Source of the DNA: a virus
Length of the DNA stretch: 64,000 nt
Strand: one strand, 5' to 3'
IMG/VR virus record: IMGVR_UViG_3300049048_000052
Coordinates: 150,643 to 214,642 of that record
Below the pieces are notes generated by a model, which was given only the letters and a program-made list of their open reading frames with translations, did no database searches and was not told the DNA's origin. This document shows, piece after piece, positions 16,312 through 59,600 of this stretch (positions are counted from its first letter, which is position 1; each line of letters opens with the position of its first letter). The position numbers and the translations under genes were made by a program.

Positions 16312-16842
16312 ATGTGGGATATGTACGGGGATGATTATGGCAACATGGAGGGCTGTCCCCCTGACTTTGCTAGTAACTGTGCCCTTGGTGTAATTGGCTG
16401 TCCTAAGTGTTCTGCTAATGGTAAGGGGGATAGACTACTTTATCAACCCATAAGCCCTGATCTACCCTTAAAGTCCCATCCTACCTATGCTAAACCGGTC
16501 AAGGAGACTAAGGTTAAGGATGCTAAAGCTAGGGCCTATAATAGAAAGGGTAGATCCATTGAGAAGAAGATCATGAAAGAGTTAGGAGCTAAGTCAACAT
16601 ATATGAGCGGCGCCACTAATCATGATGGTGATGGCCATATAACTATCAAGGGCTTCAAGTATAGAATAGGTCATAAGAATAGATTTAATAATAGAAATAC
16701 GTTGGGCCCTACCTCATCCGAGATGAAACAGGATAAGGCAATGGGTATTACTATATGGGTAACATCTAGTGAGAAGGATGGCTCTATAGTAACTATGAGT
16801 AAAGAGTTATTCGAAGAGTTATTGGGTTATATAAATGAGTAA
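16312..16842 (+). CDS. Putative Holliday-junction-resolvase-like nuclease
   Basis: 176 aa. The N-terminal third has Cys clusters (CPPDFASNC, CPKC) suggesting a metal site. The C-terminal part has GRSIEKKIMKELGA, YMSGATNHDGDGHI and FKYRIGHKNRFNNR, reminiscent of the G..E....LGA..T..SGA..GDI..E.K order in archaeal/phage Hjc-like PD-(D/E)XK nucleases. The catalytic E.K is not clear (RIGHK). It overlaps recA by 8 nt, which fits a recombination role. Tentative. Confidence 0.4.
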   Translation: MWDMYGDDYGNMEGCPPDFASNCALGVIGCPKCSANGKGDRLLYQPISPDLPLKSHPTYAKPVKETKVKDAKARAYNRKGRSIEKKIMKELGAKSTYMSGATNHDGDGHITIKGFKYRIGHKNRFNNRNTLGPTSSEMKQDKAMGITIWVTSSEKDGSIVTMSKELFEELLGYINE

Positions 16843-17908
16843 TAAAACTATTGATACGGCACAACTAACCTCGGCCTATGCTGAGCTAGATAAGAATCTC
16901 AGCAAGAAGTTTGGTGAGAAGTACTTTGGCTTTACTACGGGTCGTAATATAGGTGAGGTAACCAGGATAAGTACTGACTGCATAACGCTTGATAGAGTGT
17001 TAGGTGGTGGTATACCTGAGGGTAGGATGATAGAAGTCTTTGGACCTCCATCAGCCTCTAAGACTACCCTATGCCTAAGCATAGTTAAGGCATACCAAAA
17101 GGCAGGTCTAGCCTGCTTCTGGGTGGATGCTGAACGTGCCTTTGATCCTAAGTATGCTAGAGCATGTGGCGTAGATCCAGATACTCTAGGTATCCTAGAA
17201 CCCCTCACTGCTAATGATGCTCTTGAGAGTGTACGCCTAGTAGCTAAGAGTGGTGTTGTATCCCTAATCATATTAGATAGTACTGCGGCCTTGGTGCCTC
17301 AAGATGAATATGAGAAGGATGCAGGCTCAGGTATGATTGGCTCTGTGGCTCGTATCATGAGTCAGATGCTTAAGCAGATAGTAAATATAGCAGCAGATAA
17401 TAAGTGTACTGTTATATTCATTAATCAATTAAGGGCCTCTAATCTAACTGGCTATGGGTCCAAGACTACTACTACGGGTGGTAATGCACTTGAGTATTAT
17501 TCCTCTATAAGACTAGAGGTTACCAAGGCAGGCTTCATTGAGGATAAGGGTGAGAAGACTGGTATAAATATTAATATACAAACTAAGAAGAATAAGACCC
17601 ATAGTCCCTTTAAGATAGGAGAACTGAGTGTCTACTTCCCCTTCAAGTATAAGGGTGAGGTAGTTGCTGGGGTCGATCGAGTTGGTGATATATTAGATAA
17701 TGCACTTAATTATGATGTTATAGCTAAAGGCGGCTCATGGCTTACCTATAAGGACCAGAAGGTTCAGGGTAAGGATAAGATGAGGGCCCTACTATTAGAG
17801 GACGAAGCTTTACTAGCTGATCTTGAGGCTACGGTAAGAACTAAGTTAAATGATATAGATATTAAGGAACAAGATGACGAACAATCAGGAAAAGCCCAAG
17901 AGGACTAG
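16835..17908 (+). CDS. recA: RecA recombinase
   Basis: 357-aa RecA. Walker A GPPSASKT at residues 70-77, preceded by LGGGIPEGRMIEVFG; Walker B LIILDSTAAL; an L1/L2-type region SGMIGSVARIMSQMLKQI and FINQLRASNLTGYGS, with TTTGGNALEYYSS. Length matches bacterial RecA core and C-terminal domain, and the C-terminus is acidic (DIKEQDDEQSGKAQED). It catalyses strand exchange in phage recombination and repair. Nine of its first 14 isoleucine codons are ATA. It overlaps the next gene by 35 nt. Confidence 0.95.
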   Translation: MSNKTIDTAQLTSAYAELDKNLSKKFGEKYFGFTTGRNIGEVTRISTDCITLDRVLGGGIPEGRMIEVFGPPSASKTTLCLSIVKAYQKAGLACFWVDAERAFDPKYARACGVDPDTLGILEPLTANDALESVRLVAKSGVVSLIILDSTAALVPQDEYEKDAGSGMIGSVARIMSQMLKQIVNIAADNKCTVIFINQLRASNLTGYGSKTTTTGGNALEYYSSIRLEVTKAGFIEDKGEKTGININIQTKKNKTHSPFKIGELSVYFPFKYKGEVVAGVDRVGDILDNALNYDVIAKGGSWLTYKDQKVQGKDKMRALLLEDEALLADLEATVRTKLNDIDIKEQDDEQSGKAQED

Positions 17909-18943: not shown

Positions 18944-21900
18944 ATGAAACTGATAAAAGGTTCTGAGATCGACTTCTATTACGTAACCTCTGATGTAGGA
19001 CCTCTAGTAGAAGCGATCCAGGATCTAGACCTTGTCTTGCTTGATACCGAGACTTATCCATTAAGTGAGAAGTTCGGTCATACGGCTAATGGTCTAGATC
19101 CTCATACATCTAAGATAAGACTTATACAAATTGGTTGGCAGGGTTGCAATATACCTTATGTAGTCGATGTTAAAAAGGTAAAGAATATCCAGCCTCTATT
19201 AGATCAACTAATGAGGGAGGACCTAAAGAAACTTATACATAATGCTCAGTTCGACCTGAGACATATATATTCTAACTTTGGTATATGGCTACCTAACGTG
19301 TATTGCAGTATGACTGCCATGAAGACCCTATCGGTCTCCACTGGTTGGCAAGTAGGTAGAATGAGAGGTCATTCACTCAGAAGTCTAGCAAGAGACTTCT
19401 GTGATAGACATCTGGATAAGACTGAACAGACTAGTGATTGGTCTAAGGATACACTGGATGCTGAGCAGTTAGAGTATGCCGCTATGGATGTAGCACCTTT
19501 CATAGTTGATGCTTTCCTATCTATCAAAGAGGCCTTATGTGGACCCATACCATTAGGTTATGATGAGCCTAAACCTTTTGAGATAGATCAGGGGGCTGTT
19601 GTACCCATTGCTAAGATTGAGTATAGGGGCAATTATGTCAGCAGGGAAACATTGGAGATCCTACTGAAGGAGTCTACTAGGTTAGCTGAGTCTCATAAAC
19701 AGAAGCTATGCCAAGTACTAGACTTCCCTATTGAGAGGGAGATAGTAATGGGTGATGATGGTCAACTACAGGTTAATACTGTGGTACCTGATAAAGTAGC
19801 TAAGTTACTCAATAATAATAAGGGTCTCGTATCACATATAAATAAACTCTTAGAGGGTTCTGGATTAACTTTAACAAATCTACAGAAAGAAGAGTTAGAG
19901 AACCGTTTAGAATTACTGTCTGAGAGTAAAGCATCAGAAGCTGATGAAGAATCTGAGTCTTCTGATGAGGATATAGATTATGACTATGATTATGGTATCA
20001 GTAGTATTAAAGAACTACTACTGTACAAGAAGTATGTAAAGTTGGTCTCAGATGTCAGTAAGCATATAGATGCTATTAATGTAGTAACAGGTAATATACA
20101 TACTGACTTCCATATTATCAATGCGGCTACAGGTCGTATGGCATCCTCTTCTAATATGAATGGGATACGGGTAAACCTACAGCAGGTTAACAAATTTAGT
20201 ACTAGGGCCCAGGTGCCTATTAGGTTACTAGGGGGAGAGCTGGATGAGCTAGCTGATGTTAACTTATCTCTTAGAGGCGCCTTCCAAAGTCCTGAAGGAC
20301 ATAGCATGGCAATATGCTTAGCTGGAGATACTCTCGTTTATACGACTAAAGGTTTAGTTGAGATAAAGGATATCCAGGCTGGGGATCAGGTCATCACTGA
20401 TGGAGGTACAGCATCTGTATATCATACGAAGAAGACTGAGGGACGCCGTGTCTGGAAGCTTAAGACTAAACTGGGCTATGAGATAGAGACGACTCCAGGT
20501 CACAGATTTATGACTGTGAATGAGGAGGGTGACCTAGACTTCAAGGAGTTAAGACATCTTAAACCTAATGATTTTATAGTACTGCACAGGAATGAACATA
20601 GCTCCTATGAGGTAGACGGTGAACTCATAACTGAGTATGAGGCTACCCAGATAGGTCTCAACATGAAAGGTAGGAATAATGATAAGCAGGTACCCCCTGT
20701 TATTATGAGTGCCTCATCTAAGATTCAAGCTGCTTTCTTAAGGGGCCTCTATACAAATGAGGGCTTCCTAGAAATGAACAGTAAGATCAGATATGTTGCC
20801 TTATCTACGGGTTCCGAAGTTTACTGTAAGCAGATACAGACCATGCTACTGAGTCTGGGTATTATATCTAGAAGGACTAGTAGAAGATATGAATGTGAGT
20901 ATGGATATTATAGTGACTATTGGCTGACAATAGCTGAGATCGATCAGGTCAACCTATTTCGTAATCTCATAGGCTTCCTTGACGAAGCTAAGACAGAAGC
21001 ATTAGATAGAAACTGTGATAAGCCTAAGGTATTCAATCGTAGCCATAACATACCCTTCTCTTTTGTTAAGAAGAGGATAGGTAAATCAGGTAAGCCTGGT
21101 ATGGCGGACCTTAAACGTAATGGTAATAGATTTGGCACTACTACAAGGTATGCGGTTAACAGAGCATACAGACAGGTACCTCATCTATTTGATCCCTCTA
21201 TGCAACCTATTATAGATGGAACCCTTGCCTTTGATAGGGTGGTATCAATAGTAGATGAGGGTAAAGTCTGTGATGTTTATGATATTACTGTACCTCGTCT
21301 GAGAAGATTCAGTGCTAACGGCATAATAGTTCACAACTGTGACTATAGTAGTCAGGAGCTAATGATTGCGGCGGCCCTGTCTAATGATAGGGTAATGCTT
21401 GATGCTTTCTTTACGCAAAGGGATAATCCAACTCTTATCGATCCTGAAGGTAATGAATACGCTAACCCTTTGGTGGATCTACATACAGTAGCAGCCATGT
21501 CCCTATTCCCTCATCTCAATGAGGTGCCCTTGTGGAAGCTTGAGAAGGCTGCCAAGGAGATAGGTCCTGGAGGTCAGAAGTATCGAGATCTTGCCAAAGT
21601 GTTCAATTTTTCCATAATTTATGGTGCTTCTGCCCAGTCCTTAGCTCCTGGTCTTAAGTGTTCAGTTGAGGAGGCTGAGAGGTTCCTTGCGGCTTACTTT
21701 GGTAAGTTTAGAGGCTTAAAGGCATGGCTTGATAGGTCAGCTAAGTTAGCTAAGAAACAGAAGTGGGTTACTAGTGCGACTGGCCGTAAGCTCTTCTGCT
21801 TTGAGTCTAACAATAAGGGCAGTGATAATGCAGTGGAACGTAAGGGTCCTAATGCATTAGTCCAAGGTCTTGCATCTGACATGATGAAGATGGCATTTAG

Positions 21901-22228
21901 CAGGGCCGTACCTAGGATAGAAAGACTTAATGATAAGAGAAGGTCATTAGATCCAGGATGTAAGATAGGTTGGATACAGGCTATCGTACATGATGAGATT
22001 GTGGCTATCGTTCCAGGTACTCCTAAGTTAATTGATATAGTTAAAGCTGGTAATAAAGACGGTACAGATAAGCTTATATATGAATTCCCAGAGATAGCTA
22101 TGGAGTATGCTGAGTTAATCAGTGGCACCATGGAGGAGGTTGAGAGTGAATTACTATCACCTCTAATTGGTCAGGACTTCCCCGCTAAGGCAGACCCAGG
22201 TCTAGGCTTTAGTTGGGCTGATAAGTAA
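18944..22228 (+). CDS. polA: Family A DNA polymerase with 3'-5' exonuclease, intein-containing precursor
   Basis: 1,094-aa precursor; the mature extein is 753 aa after removal of residues 458-798. The DEDD exonuclease has VLLDTET (34-37), LIHNAQFDLRH (97-107) and YAAMDVAPF (178-186). In the polymerase domain motif A is DYSSQEL (restored by splicing), motif B/O-helix is KVFNFSIIYGASAQSL, and motif C is AIVHDEIVA. There is no 5'-nuclease domain. An unusual acidic run of about 25 residues (near 327-350, including EADEESESSDEDIDYD) sits before the palm. It is the replicative polymerase candidate, grouped with clamp, loader and SSB genes downstream. Confidence 0.95.
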   Translation: MKLIKGSEIDFYYVTSDVGPLVEAIQDLDLVLLDTETYPLSEKFGHTANGLDPHTSKIRLIQIGWQGCNIPYVVDVKKVKNIQPLLDQLMREDLKKLIHNAQFDLRHIYSNFGIWLPNVYCSMTAMKTLSVSTGWQVGRMRGHSLRSLARDFCDRHLDKTEQTSDWSKDTLDAEQLEYAAMDVAPFIVDAFLSIKEALCGPIPLGYDEPKPFEIDQGAVVPIAKIEYRGNYVSRETLEILLKESTRLAESHKQKLCQVLDFPIEREIVMGDDGQLQVNTVVPDKVAKLLNNNKGLVSHINKLLEGSGLTLTNLQKEELENRLELLSESKASEADEESESSDEDIDYDYDYGISSIKELLLYKKYVKLVSDVSKHIDAINVVTGNIHTDFHIINAATGRMASSSNMNGIRVNLQQVNKFSTRAQVPIRLLGGELDELADVNLSLRGAFQSPEGHSMAICLAGDTLVYTTKGLVEIKDIQAGDQVITDGGTASVYHTKKTEGRRVWKLKTKLGYEIETTPGHRFMTVNEEGDLDFKELRHLKPNDFIVLHRNEHSSYEVDGELITEYEATQIGLNMKGRNNDKQVPPVIMSASSKIQAAFLRGLYTNEGFLEMNSKIRYVALSTGSEVYCKQIQTMLLSLGIISRRTSRRYECEYGYYSDYWLTIAEIDQVNLFRNLIGFLDEAKTEALDRNCDKPKVFNRSHNIPFSFVKKRIGKSGKPGMADLKRNGNRFGTTTRYAVNRAYRQVPHLFDPSMQPIIDGTLAFDRVVSIVDEGKVCDVYDITVPRLRRFSANGIIVHNCDYSSQELMIAAALSNDRVMLDAFFTQRDNPTLIDPEGNEYANPLVDLHTVAAMSLFPHLNEVPLWKLEKAAKEIGPGGQKYRDLAKVFNFSIIYGASAQSLAPGLKCSVEEAERFLAAYFGKFRGLKAWLDRSAKLAKKQKWVTSATGRKLFCFESNNKGSDNAVERKGPNALVQGLASDMMKMAFSRAVPRIERLNDKRRSLDPGCKIGWIQAIVHDEIVAIVPGTPKLIDIVKAGNKDGTDKLIYEFPEIAMEYAELISGTMEEVESELLSPLIGQDFPAKADPGLGFSWADK
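20315..21337 (+). mobile_element. LAGLIDADG intein in DNA polymerase motif A
   Basis: 341-aa in-frame intein (precursor residues 458-798). It begins CLAGDTLVYTTKG (block A, Cys1), has block B TPGHRFMT with the TxxH, ends with block F VYDITVP and block G NGIIVHN, and is followed by Cys+1 of the extein. Between them IQAAFLRGLYTNEGFLE is a LAGLIDADG-type motif, so the homing endonuclease is present. Splicing joins HSMAI to CDYSSQELM, placing the insertion two residues before the catalytic Asp-Tyr-Ser. Confidence 0.95.
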
Positions 22229-35456: not shown

Positions 35457-36083
35457 ATGAATGTGAGAAGTAACCTAATTGCCATAGAGGGCATAGATGG
35501 ATGTGGTAAGTCTATACAGACGGACCTACTAGTCCAGTGGCTTATAAGTAAGGATATAAAAGTTAGAAAGACAGCACAGTCTGGCGGTACCGCTATAGGT
35601 AGTCTTATAAGAAGATTAACCTTTGATACAGACAAACATGAGGGTGAGACCTTAGGGCCGCTGGCTACCCAACTACTATTTATGGCAGATAGGGTACATC
35701 ATCAGGAAGAGGTTATTATACCTGCCCTTAATGCTGGACATATTGTTGTTAGTGATAGATATATACAATCTGGCTTTGCATATGGTCAAGCACATGGGCT
35801 AACTGAGAATCAATGTAAGTCTATGTTTGAGGCCTGTACCTTTGTCAAACCCGCTGTAACTATATGGTTGGATCTACCCGTACAATTAGCCCTATCAAGG
35901 GTAAGAGTACAACAAAGCTTTGAGAAGTTAGGTAGACCTTTCTATGTAAAGCTAAGGGAACATTATTGGAACCTCTTTATAGATGACCATAGTATGGAAC
36001 GTATAGAGATAACTGAACATGACGATGTTGTATCCGTACAGGATCAAATAAGGGATATTGTAAAGGAATACTTGAGGATCTAA
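35457..36083 (+). CDS. tmk: Thymidylate kinase
   Basis: 208-aa dTMP kinase. P-loop EGIDGCGKS, SGGTAIGSLIRRL (the DR/E motif region is altered), LLFMADRVHH, the DRYIQSGFAYG motif, and a C-terminal lid. It converts dTMP (from ThyX) to dTDP. One nt separates it from the helicase stop region, and its TAA overlaps the next ATG (TAATG). Confidence 0.9.
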   Translation: MNVRSNLIAIEGIDGCGKSIQTDLLVQWLISKDIKVRKTAQSGGTAIGSLIRRLTFDTDKHEGETLGPLATQLLFMADRVHHQEEVIIPALNAGHIVVSDRYIQSGFAYGQAHGLTENQCKSMFEACTFVKPAVTIWLDLPVQLALSRVRVQQSFEKLGRPFYVKLREHYWNLFIDDHSMERIEITEHDDVVSVQDQIRDIVKEYLRI

Positions 36084-36712
36084 TGATTACAACCTATGGC
36101 CCTATTCCTAGGGAAGTAGGTCTAGCATTATCAGGTGGATGTGACTCAATGGCTGTACTGGACTATCTACTATTAAGTAGAAGAAAGGTTACAGCCATTC
36201 ATGTTGATCATGGGGATGAATACTCAGCTGAATGTGTAGACCTGGTAACTAAATATTGTAAATATAGAGATGTACCATTATACGTCTCTGAGCCTATTGG
36301 ACCTAAACCAATGGGAATGTCTGAAGAAATGTGGTGGAGACAGGAACGCTATGAGTTCCTCCGGCATATACAATCTATTATTGATTTACCTATTATTACT
36401 GCCCATAACCTTGATGATCAGGTAGAGACCTGGTTAATGAGTATGATTAAGGGCACCCCCAAGTTAATCCCAAGCTATAGGGATAACCCTAATATTATTA
36501 GGCCCTTTCTACTTACAAGGAAAGAGAGTCTGAGAGACTGGTGTATACAAAAAGCTGTGCCCTTCCTAGATGACCCCGAGAATGATAATTGGGAACATGA
36601 GAGATGTTATACAAGACATCACCTGGTGTCTGCAGTAACCGATATTAATCCTGGCATTCATCGTAAGGTAGCTAAGTTAGTGAGAGACAAATATGGAGAA
36701 TTATCCAGGTGA
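36083..36712 (+). CDS. tilS: TilS-like tRNA(Ile)-lysidine synthetase
   Basis: 209 aa. PP-loop SGGCDS at 17-22, HVDHG, QERYEFL, TAHNLDDQVETWLMSMIKGT, RPFLLTRKESLRDWC and PFLDDPENDN...RCYTRHHL all follow the TilS N-terminal catalytic domain in order. The longer C-terminal domains of E. coli TilS (about 430 aa total) are absent, as in short-type TilS. It ligates lysine to C34 of tRNA-Ile2(CAU) so that it reads AUA. A CAU tRNA lies about 1 kb downstream. Confidence 0.85.
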   Translation: MITTYGPIPREVGLALSGGCDSMAVLDYLLLSRRKVTAIHVDHGDEYSAECVDLVTKYCKYRDVPLYVSEPIGPKPMGMSEEMWWRQERYEFLRHIQSIIDLPIITAHNLDDQVETWLMSMIKGTPKLIPSYRDNPNIIRPFLLTRKESLRDWCIQKAVPFLDDPENDNWEHERCYTRHHLVSAVTDINPGIHRKVAKLVRDKYGELSR

Positions 36713-37157
36713 GTGGAACCCTTATGATATATACTGGGCCAACCTAATAGTTGTGAAGTCACACCTTTGGATGCCCTATAGGCTGTCCAAAGATATGATA
36801 GGAATGGTAGTAAAGGTTGATGATGATACAGCCCAAAGACTCTATGGTCGTTACTATAATTGGTTGACACTTCACTACCTAGTAAAAGTAGAGAGTGATC
36901 CTAAGGACAGAAGTAAACGGAGGGCTACCTGGGAGAGACCAGGAGACTATAAGGCTCAGATATATAGTGTTGATGATGCTAGCTATGGAGCTTGGTTGCT
37001 ACCCCGTAAACTACATGAAATAGATTACATGTGGCATCAGATAGAATGTTTCCTGATGAACAAACAGGACAACTGGCTTGAGAAGGGGCTGAATGGGCAG
37101 AAGTTCTTAGACTTCTGTAATGACAACTTCACAGCAACTAGTTTTGATTACAATTGA
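36693..37157 (+). CDS. Hypothetical protein
   Basis: Unrecognised 154-aa protein rich in Trp and Tyr (about 17 in total), with an early WNPYDIYWANLIVVKSHLWM block. It overlaps tilS by 20 nt. The aromatic, mixed-charge composition could suit nucleic-acid or nucleotide binding, but no motif is seen. Confidence 0.6.
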   Translation: MENYPGEWNPYDIYWANLIVVKSHLWMPYRLSKDMIGMVVKVDDDTAQRLYGRYYNWLTLHYLVKVESDPKDRSKRRATWERPGDYKAQIYSVDDASYGAWLLPRKLHEIDYMWHQIECFLMNKQDNWLEKGLNGQKFLDFCNDNFTATSFDYN

Positions 37158-37163
37158 GGAGAA

Positions 37164-37415
37164 ATGAGAATGTTGTACTATGCAATAGTCTACAATAAGG
37201 TTAGCCTTAAAAGTTCCCTAGTAAGCGCGGGCAGCCCTGGGGCTAGATTTACCGATCCTCAGGTTGCCGAGACTAGACTAAGGAATGCAATCAAATCAGA
37301 AACAGAGTTTGGCTGTGTTTATGGAGGTCTGGGTTATACAAACGCGCTTAGGCATCCTCCCATAATATGGGTGAATGCTAGTGGCGAGGATAAGTCAAGA
37401 TTGGTGGCAGGCTAA
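37164..37415 (+). CDS. Small hypothetical protein
   Basis: Unrecognised 83-aa protein with GGAG upstream of ATG. Contains TDPQVAETRLRNAIKSETEFG, similar in layout to the next protein (a DSREGAEQMLQTALTSDQYG block), so the two may be distant paralogues. Its TAA overlaps the next ATG. Confidence 0.55.
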   Translation: MRMLYYAIVYNKVSLKSSLVSAGSPGARFTDPQVAETRLRNAIKSETEFGCVYGGLGYTNALRHPPIIWVNASGEDKSRLVAG

Positions 37416-37660
37416 TGATCCTGGCAATCGCAATAAGTAGGGAAACAGGGGAATCAAATAAGATTCCTACTAGGGAGGGTAAGTACAATTGGGATTCAAG
37501 GGAAGGTGCTGAGCAGATGCTTCAGACCGCCTTAACCTCAGACCAATATGGAGTTGTAGTGGAGGTTAATAATCCCTTCTTCCTACACCTGGGTCAAGTG
37601 CTTACATTCGTAGGTACTACAAAGGCTGACGAACAAAATTGGAGATCAGTAGTCCAATAG
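37415..37660 (+). CDS. Small hypothetical protein
   Basis: Unrecognised 81-aa protein coupled to its neighbour (TAATG). Beta-alpha-beta pattern: LAIAISRETGE, helix REGAEQMLQTALTS, strand YGVVVEV. It is the last gene before the tRNA. Confidence 0.55.
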   Translation: MILAIAISRETGESNKIPTREGKYNWDSREGAEQMLQTALTSDQYGVVVEVNNPFFLHLGQVLTFVGTTKADEQNWRSVVQ

Positions 37661-37699
37661 GTTATGATATACATAGGAGTCCATCAACTCCTATCACAC

Positions 37700-37773
37700 G
37701 CGCCTGTAGCTCAGTTGGTTAGAGCGCCGAACTCATAATTCGGATGTCCCTGGTTCGAATCCAGGCTGGCGCA
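37700..37773 (+). tRNA. tRNA with CAU anticodon, probably tRNA-Ile2 (AUA-decoding)
   Basis: Full cloverleaf: acceptor GCGCCTG/CTGGCGC (one U6-U67 mismatch), TA, D arm GCTC...GAGC, anticodon arm CCGAA-CTCATAA-TTCGG, variable ATGTC, T arm CCTGG-TTCGAAT-CCAGG, discriminator A, no encoded CCA. The anticodon CAU could be Met or Ile2. The C4-G69 and C5-G68 pairs match the known TilS determinants of E. coli tRNA-Ile2 rather than tRNA-Met (U4, A5), and a tilS gene lies nearby, so Ile2 is favoured. The body TAGCTCAGTTGGTTAGAGC also resembles elongator tRNA-Met. Confidence 0.9.
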
Positions 37774-37793: not shown

Positions 37794-37814
37794 ATGGGGA
37801 CCTTAGGTCCCCAT
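37794..37814 (+). terminator. Terminator hairpin after tRNA
   Basis: Perfect 9-bp stem ATGGGGACC/GGTCCCCAT with loop TTA, followed by TAATAATT. It lies between the tRNA and the RNA ligase gene. Confidence 0.7.
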
Positions 37815-37834: not shown

Positions 37835-38470
37835 ATGGTTGATCTCAAGTTCCCTAGGACTAAACATCTGCCCTTCTCTCCTGGTAGAGGTAGTGATGAT
37901 AAGGTTCACCCAGATCTTAGCTTTGTGCTAGATGGTAAGCGTCTACTGCTGACCACAAAGATGGACGGAGAGAACCAAAGGTGGACCCGTAGCAGCTTTA
38001 ATCTAAGGAGTCTATCATCTACCTCGGGTGGAGAATTGAGATCTAGAGCCAAGGCTAAATGGGGCGAAGTCTGCTACTTAATAGATGAGGGATTGTCTGT
38101 TTTTGTAGAGGACACTACAGTAGTCCACTCTATACAATATGGACCCAGACTGACCAATCTATTCGTTATTGCGGTTAGAGATGATAAGACAGGTCACTTC
38201 ATGTCCTGGTTTGATACTGAACAGTATGCTAGGAAATTGAACATGAAGACAGTGCCAGTACTATGGCACATGCAAGGCAGTGAATTTATCCGTGTTACTC
38301 TGGAGTCTTTAATAAAGGAGAGACATAGAAGTAACCATGAGGGTATTGTTTTAAGACCTGAGGACGAGATAACTAATTGGACTGCTCAGACAGCTAAATG
38401 GGTTAGGGCTAATCATGTTCAAACAGATGAGCATTGGGAGCGTACCGCCCTGAAGAACCTGAGGAAGTAA
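37835..38470 (+). CDS. Second RNA ligase (small nucleotidyltransferase type)
   Basis: 211 aa, AAGGAGG before ATG. Adenylation motif KMDGEN, FVEDTTVVHSIQY in the motif III area, NLFVIAV (IIIa), HEGIVLRP (IV) and AKWVRANH (V): the RNA ligase superfamily order, but shorter than and unlike the Rnl1-type ligase at 23737. The N-terminal FPRTKHLPFSPG is typical of this small phage/bacterial group. Adjacent to the tRNA gene. Target RNA unknown. Confidence 0.8.
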   Translation: MVDLKFPRTKHLPFSPGRGSDDKVHPDLSFVLDGKRLLLTTKMDGENQRWTRSSFNLRSLSSTSGGELRSRAKAKWGEVCYLIDEGLSVFVEDTTVVHSIQYGPRLTNLFVIAVRDDKTGHFMSWFDTEQYARKLNMKTVPVLWHMQGSEFIRVTLESLIKERHRSNHEGIVLRPEDEITNWTAQTAKWVRANHVQTDEHWERTALKNLRK

Positions 38471-56600: not shown

Positions 56601-59600
56601 CTTCTCAAAGAACTTAGCGCTAACAATCTTAATGTCTCTAGTAACATTACCAAAACTATCATTAAATATCTTATATAGATTCTCTCTATTACCATTCATC
56701 ATATCCATAATGATGCCGACGGCGTCCTTATGGTTCATAGCCCTTATTAGCATGTCACTTACCAAGGACTGACTAGGCTGGAAACTCATATGGGCCGTCA
56801 TCTTACTTCTGTAATCTATAGCCCCGGCCACTAAGTCGTCACCACCTATAAGACCTAATACAGACTCATCTACCTTACTAATCTTCCTTCTCTCCTTGAG
56901 AGGCTGAAGATGAGCGGTAACGCTCATAAGATTAACGGCTGCCTTCCTAAGATCCTTCTCAGCTAACTTGGATAGACCGCTCTCAGAGTTGGCAGCATTA
57001 GATACTGCCTTTAGGGCTTTTATAGTATTGATAGCTAGATCATTATTACCCGCGAATGATTCCTTGAATAGGAAAGCAGCAGACATAGAATAGACTGCGG
57101 TAGATATATCCTGACCGGCGGATTGCATCTGAATATACATACTATTTCTAGTACCATACTCACCAGTCCTGAATGTCACACCAAATAGGTTGTAGAAGTT
57201 AAGGAAGGCATTGGGTTCGTCTAGGATAAATAAACTACTTATATCCTTCCATATCTTGTTGGCACCTGAGTTTCTATCAGGTCCCTTAACTAGTTTCCTG
57301 TACTTAACTGGAGAAGCAGATAGACCGAATGAGCTGCCAGGTACCATAGGGGTGGGTAAGGGGCCCATACGTTCTATACTTCTATCCTGACCGGTTACTA
57401 ATCTGAATGTGTCTGCTAATATAGAACCTAGATATTGTAAGGGTTTAATACCCGTATTGAAGCCAGTCTCTAGACCATCGAATATATTATTTATGGCCTC
57501 CCTATTCTGACCGCCACCAGTTAATAGGGCTGCAGTGGTTGCCGTGCCTAATCCTAACCAAGCTAGACTCCTAATGGCCCTCCTACTTAGTAATGTAGGT
57601 CTTACCCTTCTGTTAACAGCGCCAGCCTTTCTAGCTAATGAGGATAGACCCTCTCCCACATTAGGATCGTTATGATCACCCCTTATAATCTTTATGAGGG
57701 CATCCTTATCTCCATCAGTGGCAAGATTAAATACTTGCTCTCCACTGTCTACCTTCATGGCATTGGTCTTAGCCATCTGTTGAGATATCCTATGGATATC
57801 CGCATCAGCCTTGGCATCAGGACTATTGGCGACCTCATGCATTCTAGATGCCATATCTATAATATATGCACTATCCTGAGCCAGTGCTCTTTCATGTAGC
57901 TTCAACCACCAATGTCTAAGAGCCTGGACTCCTTTTGGTCCCGCAGGGGTATTCTTAGTCTTCTCTAGTATATTGGCATATGCATCTAGGGTATCTGCAT
58001 TTGACATACCCATCTTACCCATGCCATAGGTGATGGATGTCATAGTGGCAGCATACATACTCATGACGCTGAGTCTATAAACTATATCCTCCCTACCATC
58101 ATACTTGTCCATATCCCTAGAATAGCCAAAGTTAGGATCTGTAATGGCATAGGCTATACCGGCAAATAGACCAAAGACCTTGGCTCTACCACTATGTCTC
58201 AAGTTATATATAGGCTTACCCATTCTGTTCCAGAGAAAGCTACCAGTAGATGCTACGGTCCTCTGTAAATGAGTGGGCATCCTGTTGTACATACCTCTAG
58301 CAGATAGACGGGCTAGTCTAGCTGCACTAGGTATAAGATTCTTAGATAGTTCGAATACTTCTGGGCCTAATATGGTCAGGGCTGGTCCTACAGTAAAGGT
58401 TCCTAATAGGCCGCCCATAGTTATGTCAGCAGGATCCTTACGACCTAATAAGGCTGCGCCAGTACTTCCTAGTATGGAACCTACGTACATGCCCACCATA
58501 CCTTTGAGGGCCAAAGACTTAAATAACTGGGCCTGTGTTGGGGCTTTAAAGACGGGAAGGCTCTTATTCATAGCATTAGCTATACCTCCGTAAACCCCCA
58601 GGTCAGCAACCGCCATACCCCTAACTATACGATAGGCTGTTGCCGGTATAGCCTCAGCAGCCCTAGTCCCATACCTTATAATCCTATTGGCTGTCTCATA
58701 GGATTTAGTAATGGAAGTCATGCTTATCATGCCAGGTTTGTAGCTACCAGATGGTCCTAGCTTGCTGTCTATAAGATTACTCAACATCTGGCCCACCGCT
58801 ACAGTTAGGGTAGCAGTGCCTGTCAGTAGACCTACACTCTGTATGAAATCTATGGTGTTTGACTGTTCATTATATGCAACACCTAAGCCAAACATACCCC
58901 CACCCCTATATATCTTTATAGGTAGTTGGGTACTAATGGACACACCAAATATAGGGGCGGATTGGATACCTACAGAATAATAACTAGTTCCACCTTTGCT
59001 ATTATCAGGCGCTCCATTAGGTAAAGTAGGACGACCCTTAATAGTCTCTGCTAAGAAGAACTGTATAAATGGTAGGGGTGACTGTTTAGCTATAACTTGT
59101 ACAGTTGGGCCCATTCTATCTTGGTCTAATGCAGGTAGTACCTTTGATAGTTCACCGCCGTAGAATGCCGCCATTAACTCCAGGTTAGAGGGTCTTTGAC
59201 CACTATCTAGTCTCTCCTTAACTAACCTCTTGAAGTTAGCTATCTGGCTAATGGCGCTAGCCATAGCAGGATCTACCCTATGCATTCCAGTACCAACATC
59301 GGTCAATCTAATACCGATTGCATTGGTTATAAATCCTAAGGCCCCTCCAGCTAGAGCACCTAGTATTATACCTCTACCACTCTTGGTTAGAGACCCTAGA
59401 CCTGCAGCCCCTGCTGCACCAAATATAAGAGGATCAAGACTACCCCTGCCACCCTCCTGGAAGAGACTACTGCTAGTAGATGTCCAGTTCCTAGAGAGCT
59501 GCAATAAACCTGCAGTAGCACTACGAGCCCCTTGGGTGGCTAACATACCTACACCAAAGACAATAGCAGTATTCCTGTTGATATCACCCATCATACGTAT

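Follow-up and report, generated by a model that had tools for sequence, protein, structure and literature searches.

Why bacteriophages carry tRNAs and tRNA-modifying enzymes is a long-standing question. It is raised here by a 64-kb stretch of virus DNA (hereafter the window; bases 150,643–214,642 of the 251,780-base IMG/VR record IMGVR_UViG_3300049048_000052), in which a short gene for tRNA(Ile)-lysidine synthetase (tilS) precedes a tRNA gene with anticodon CAU. A first-pass annotation had interpreted this pair as a module for decoding AUA codons. The assignment of a phage TilS and an Ile2-type tRNA to AUA decoding proved well supported, but three of the arguments offered for it had to be corrected. 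An AUA-decoding module, composed of a phage tRNA-Ile2 precursor (CAU) and a TilS that consists of the N domain only, is considered a probable explanation of the locus.

The protein encoded by the phage tilS scored above the equivalog-domain cut-off of NCBIfam model TIGR02432 for the N-terminal PP-loop ATPase domain (107.5 versus 93.6 bits) and matched Pfam ATP_bind_3 at 1.8e-28, in agreement with the short catalytic domain originally noticed. An SGGxDS loop is present, and residues D21, R89, D112, E115, and R178 align with D36, R113, D137, E140, and R205 of Aquifex aeolicus TilS, which we take to be the catalytic (ATP/lysine) residues. All five were invariant across the 50 virus TilS sequences described below. 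An AlphaFold2 model, for which 31 virus sequences were used as input, reached a predicted local distance difference test score of 94.2. PDB entries at ranks 1–5 for this model were all TilS (the best including 1ni5, 2e21, and 2e89), and the best solved matches were the Escherichia coli and A. aeolicus enzymes, an ATP-lysine complex among them. Template modeling (TM) scores were 0.80–0.86 over the query but only 0.41–0.59 over the targets, because the phage protein ends after the N domain. The open reading frame (ORF) stops at 209 amino acids (aa), and both C-terminal domains of bacterial TilS, CTD1 (types I and II) and CTD2 (type I), are absent. Judged from its predicted sequence, the protein is a TilS by its catalytic domain alone and belongs to neither type I nor type II.

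The supposition that phage-encoded TilS is rare did not hold. Its presence in phages was already known (PMC6892783, PMC7029224), and a scan of IMG/VR yielded at least 497 stretches with TilS relatives, 80 of which were kept. Fifty representatives sharing less than 85% identity comprised 46 sequences from IMG/VR, phage MIJ3, two phages of 634–642 kb, and the window. The ORFs kept from IMG/VR encode 195–236 aa and the N domain only; their best bacterial hits were mostly 395–500 aa long. In a quick tree, calculated without bootstrap, a branch with a Shimodaira-Hasegawa-like approximate likelihood ratio of 100% separated all 50 virus sequences from 41 bacterial and cyanobacterial ones. Acquisition of tilS from the present host of the phage was therefore ruled out. 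Virus sequences were further marked by W85 (in 98%, where bacteria have A or C), G191, and NPG at 189–191. One record, IMGVR_UViG_3300023283_000076 (loci L051 and L066), contains two different tilS genes, each 1.6–3.3 kb from a CAU tRNA, and one of these loci also holds a tRNA-Ile(UAU). In loci L021, L022, L032, L056, and L060, tmRNA genes (Rfam RF00023, 110–125 bits) were detected 2.5–7 kb from tilS, with tags that include ANDNYYYNEFALAA.

Codon usage within tilS provided a connection to AUA. Across the 50 representatives, tilS contained 59 ATA codons versus 210 expected from the other genes of the same loci (observed/expected ratio, O/E, 0.28; z −13), and ATA was below background in 46 of them (p 4e-10). 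No other codon was outlying, the next most depleted being AGG at 0.75. ATA O/E was 1.00 in 547 other genes of these loci and 1.11 in 79 bacterial tilS genes (1.01 over their first 220 codons). Values of 0.23, 0.22, and 0.24 were obtained for sets sharing less than 65, 55, and 50% identity, respectively, the last with 10 of its 11 representatives below background. In the window, tilS has 2 ATA among 16 isoleucine codons (p 0.003). Conserved isoleucine sites were rejected as a cause, since depletion persisted at variable isoleucine columns (11% ATA) and bacterial tilS was not depleted. These results tie virus TilS to AUA decoding and suggest that AUA decoding by the host is limiting when tilS is translated. 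In the simplest reading, AUA decoding is the process served by the enzyme, whose mRNA has to be translatable while AUA is still poorly decoded; bacteria inherit the TilS protein, and their tilS genes would therefore experience no such pressure. An ATA-free tilS represents a strong codon-specific evolutionary trace of a phage modifying enzyme that acts on a single codon, and also marks AUA as poorly read when that enzyme is made; a gene into which AUA codons were reintroduced would be expected to fail early in infection.

In 28 of 47 loci, tilS was the most or second most ATA-depleted gene. Further ATA-poor genes encode DNA polymerase, a sigma factor, RIIA, Thg1, and a Glu/Gln-type tRNA synthetase, and several of these gene types are early genes in known phages. 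The 634- and 642-kb phages, which also hold an N-domain-only TilS (mini-TilS) and a tRNA-Ile(UAU), carry strongly ATA-depleted genes for a Thg1-type tRNA-His guanylyltransferase (L014:10348-11187) and a Glu/Gln-type tRNA synthetase (L015:27269-28741).

Comparison of the phage's major head protein (phrog_30785) recovered only one lineage, that of Microcystis phage LMM01 and a Microcoleus phage (46–48% identity), and the host is probably a cyanobacterium. Cyanobacterial CAU tRNAs, for which four genomes were probed closely and a wider pattern search was made, fell into classes labeled from their identity elements: fMet, Met (with a GGCTCAG acceptor and U4-A69), and one further class read as Ile2 (C4-G69 and an acceptor of GCGCCTT or CGGCAGT, with CGAACTCATAATTCG as anticodon arm). 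Dense arrays with odd tRNAs occur in cyanobacterial genomes L445, L456, L457, and L458, and one CAU tRNA in these arrays resembles an fMet-like tRNA of the phage. The window tRNA, the only one found by ARAGORN within the 64 kb, was confirmed by Rfam (72.3 bits). Its outer five acceptor pairs (GCGCC/GGCGC) and four of its five anticodon-stem pairs (GAACTCATAATTC) are those of cyanobacterial Ile2. It has a CTCATAA loop, A37, A38, and A73, as well as C4-G69, C5-G68, and U12-A23, which are listed as elements for isoleucyl-tRNA synthetase (IleRS) or TilS (PMC9976931, PMC12514573); Met-type U4-A69 is absent. The E. coli elements C29-G41 and G27-U43 are replaced by G29-C41 and C27-G43. As cyanobacterial Ile2 likewise has G29-C41, C29-G41 is an E. 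coli-type element. The T arm matches tRNA-Ile(GAU).

That this tRNA is an elongator tRNA-Met, with TilS acting on a different substrate or in a different role, is highly improbable. The anticodon led ARAGORN to label the tRNA Met, and its D arm is identical to that of cyanobacterial tRNA-Met, though this arm is generic; the acceptor and anticodon pairs, however, follow Ile2, and both its linkage to tilS and the ATA avoidance of that gene speak otherwise. The remainder of the record holds about 20 more tRNAs, among them three other CAU tRNAs. Two of these are separate Met-like (L008:14128, loop TTCATAC) and fMet-like (L008:12233) tRNAs, while the tRNA at L004:17971-18043 (contig 57,971–58,043) shares 89% identity with the other form of cyanobacterial Ile2 and is, on sequence grounds, a second Ile2-type tRNA. 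In LMM01, the annotated tRNA-Met (L496:34160-34232, minus strand) is more similar to cyanobacterial tRNA-Ile2 (0.75) than to tRNA-Met (0.65–0.67), and is probably a misannotated AUA decoder.

Linkage of tilS to CAU tRNAs extended beyond the window. Among the 35 representative loci with at least two tRNAs, the tRNA nearest to tilS was CAU in 16, versus 5.4 expected from shuffling within loci (p ~1e-5), and no other anticodon was outlying. Distances were as short as 8 (L056), 9 (L032), 12 (L019), 27 (L063), and 28 (L018) bases. In a set of 13 aligned tilS-linked phage tRNAs, all had the CTCATAA loop and A73. C4-G69 and C5-G68, correctly read as C-G pairs in the first-pass annotation, cannot carry the argument for recognition by this TilS: they were mapped with E. 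coli TilS, whose CTD2, absent here, contacts the acceptor stem (PMC12514573), and their conservation is reported to end with the gammaproteobacteria (PMC12069591). C4 and C5 occurred together in only 7 of the 13 tRNAs, and the two pairs were discarded as a common mark. Plain co-presence of TilS and a CAU tRNA was likewise discarded as a signal, as it showed no enrichment in large records. Possibly, though not probably, the main substrate of phage TilS is the host's own tRNA-Ile2, or else the second Ile2-type tRNA of the phage, lysidine being topped up when host TilS is limiting, and the neighboring tRNA is incidental. Consistent with this option, ATA avoidance in tilS was alike whether a CAU tRNA lay nearby (20/76) or not (39/135), a freshwater TilS clade had no tRNA within the fetched flanks, and the second phage CAU tRNA closely resembles a cyanobacterial Ile2. 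Proximity at three-fold over chance, seen in 18 of 50 loci and on multiple branches of the tree (at least nine changes), argues against it.

Demand for AUA decoding was evident in the phage genome. The count reported for recA (16835-17908) was exact, with ATA at 9 of the first 14 isoleucine codons and 17 of 26 overall. ATA is the most used isoleucine codon genome-wide (2220 of 4602; 48%), compared with about 17% in ORFs of a small, mixed sample of cyanobacterial loci, and its composition-corrected excess was higher than in all 108 (short) TilS-negative, tRNA-bearing virus loci. A preference specific to isoleucine was not borne out: among A-, C-, and T-ending codons, ATA, GTA, and CTA have shares of 48, 48, and 52%, and TpA is over-represented (rho 1.29 overall, 1.33 across codon borders). 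ATA richness is part of a general NTA preference or TpA excess, not an isoleucine-specific choice. Stretches of 49 kb from LMM01 and the Microcoleus phage, a lineage in which tblastn found no TilS in LMM01 or its relatives, contained 55–57% ATA (57% in LMM01), with a TpA value of 1.5 in LMM01 relatives. All this would fit pure compositional drift, by which TpA-rich DNA creates AUA demand and a helpful tRNA and enzyme are retained without regulatory meaning. Such drift is compatible with the AUA-decoding module as the origin of the demand; as the whole explanation it is quite unlikely, since it leaves unexplained why tilS alone is stripped of ATA and why the major head protein (1/29) and a 1613-aa ORF (0/85) of this phage avoid it. 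The latter two counts also indicate that ATA is not a favored codon even for the phage. The 1613-aa ORF (L004:1819-6660; contig about 41,819–46,660) matches phrog_30979, has almost no AGA or AGG, and contains a GDGDGDP stretch that resembles the active site of RNA polymerase beta-prime; its adjoining genes are likewise ATA-free. CTAG is also over-represented (about 6.5 per kb in the window), and the excess of TpA and CTAG is common to LMM01 and the Microcoleus phage.

From the computed gene identity, catalytic residues, fold, linkage, AUA demand, and ATA avoidance in tilS, we infer lysidine formation, a choice of substrate through the anticodon arm, and the following order of events. The nearly AUA-free tilS would be translated before AUA decoding is restored, after which mini-TilS would add lysine to C34 of the phage, and perhaps the host, tRNA-Ile2. 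The modified tRNA would be charged with isoleucine by host IleRS, proposed because a profile search found no PF00133 synthetase (class I Ile/Leu/Val/Met-type) in the record, and would then read AUA, so that AUA-rich phage genes are translated. Mini-TilS probably distinguishes Ile2 from Met by the conserved anticodon arm. Low AUA decoding could result either from little AUA use by the host or from its removal by infection or defense. More tentatively, and with well below even expectation, the virus N-domain-only clade as a whole may restore AUA decoding that is lost or lacking in infected cells, the AUA-free tilS acting as a bootstrap switch through which TilS and the linked tRNA-Ile2 gate AUA-rich genes. 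If true, this would constitute a codon-specific relay of virus gene expression in many phages.

A role in counter-defense, in which host nucleases or stress strip tRNA-Ile2 or lysidine, the phage replaces both, and an RNA ligase repairs cut tRNAs, is rather unlikely. We know of no defense aimed at tRNA-Ile2 or lysidine, and scarce AUA decoding in low-AUA hosts explains the same data. ATA avoidance in tilS does imply that AUA decoding is lacking when the gene is translated, and an RNA ligase gene directly follows the tRNA in this locus. Phage tRNAs are reported to be able to evade tRNA-targeting defenses (PMC10264068, PMC11555353).

Several observations weigh against the proposed AUA-decoding module. 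Bacterial TilS grips its tRNA with CTD1 and CTD2, neither of which is present in mini-TilS; lysidine formation by the isolated N domain is a predicted activity, and C175 in the window TilS occupies a position of the RN motif at which nearly all TilS have N. In the tRNA, a U.U mismatch at 6-67 of the acceptor stem, which the first-pass annotation had not mentioned, is open in the fold as well, and the mixture of arm types may be responsible for it. Whole-tRNA similarity was 0.81 to E. coli Ile2 and 0.80 to cyanobacterial Met, and by itself did not separate the two classes. TilS-positive loci as a group were not ATA-rich once composition was corrected (p 0.29; raw p 0.009), and a CTCATAA tRNA was found in 16 of 20 TilS-positive versus 19 of 27 large TilS-negative phages with tRNAs.

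Table 1. Features of the tilS-tRNA locus (window coordinates).
Feature	Position	Strand	Evidence or remark
Thymidylate kinase	35457..36083	+	PF02223 4e-32
tilS, N-domain-only tRNA(Ile)-lysidine synthetase (mini-TilS), 209 aa	36083..36712	+	TIGR02432, fold, clade
ORF without assigned function, 154 aa, 20-base overlap with tilS end	36693..37157	+	No Pfam or PHROG match
Small ORF between tilS and tRNA, 83 aa, no assigned function	37164..37415	+	
Small ORF, 81 aa, no assigned function, ends 39 bases before tRNA	37415..37660	+	
8-bp hairpin directly upstream of tRNA	37673..37694	+	Fold z −2.7
CAU tRNA, no encoded CCA, read as tRNA-Ile2	37700..37773	+	ARAGORN, Rfam, arm comparison
9-bp hairpin GGGGACC-TTA-GGTCCCC 3' of tRNA, no clear T run	37794..37814	+	z −2.9; absent from terminator scan list
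RNA ligase, 211 aa, first gene after tRNA	37835..38470	+	PF09414 1.5e-15, phrog_24030

The stop codon of the thymidylate kinase gene shares one base with the tilS start (Table 1). From thymidylate kinase to RNA ligase, all genes read in the same direction and are separated by no more than 61 bases, which makes a single transcript likely. A promoter and terminator scan of the locus performed no better than on shuffled sequence. The hairpin upstream of the tRNA is a possible processing signal, and the RNA ligase a possible tRNA-repair partner. Elsewhere in the record, a tRNA with anticodon CUA (amber suppressor type; L004:10858-10929, contig about 50,858; Rfam 37 bits) was found; as TAG ends 82 of 240 predicted ORFs, whole-genome recoding is unlikely. 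ARAGORN could assign no normal anticodon loop to tRNA-like genes at L004:10941-11009, L004:11519-11592, and L008:15061-15135, and a candidate tRNA with an insert spans 172 bases (L007:12396-12567). At 18944-22228 the window also encodes a family A DNA polymerase in which Pfam identifies an intein and a LAGLIDADG domain, and three group I introns exceeded Rfam gathering scores (L002:676-968, minus strand; L008:479-1155; L008:10487-10728).

A literature search, which covered neither subscription papers nor preprints, returned no paper on an N-domain-only TilS clade, its tRNA linkage, or an ATA-free tilS. The Ma-LMM01 lineage resembles the phage in its head protein, its ATA- and TpA-rich DNA, and an Ile2-like CAU tRNA, but differs in lacking a TilS detectable by tblastn and in having only two annotated tRNAs in the stretches covered. 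In pelagimyophage genomes, tRNA(Ile)-lysidine synthetase was named in one sentence in 2020; unlike here, the available part of that report holds no tRNA linkage, domain, or codon analysis (PMC7029224). TilS of Pseudomonas phages MIJ3/PA5oct was reported in 2019 with upkeep of host viability, not AUA decoding, as its proposed role (PMC6892783). It is of the short form, with about 38% identity, and CAU tRNAs also occur in the phage; its gene has 2 ATA among 15 isoleucine codons where 57% would be expected, but lies at least 5.6 kb from tRNAs, unlike in the phage studied here. With bacterial TilS (E. coli 1ni5, Geobacillus kaustophilus 3a2k, A. aeolicus 1wy5/2e21/2e89), the phage enzyme shares the PP-loop N domain, the SGGxDS loop, and all invariant residues except N175. 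The virus enzymes differ from bacterial types I and II in consisting of the N domain only and in forming a clade of their own, and mini-TilS may thereby offer a minimal lysidine synthetase for studying tRNA recognition without C-terminal domains.
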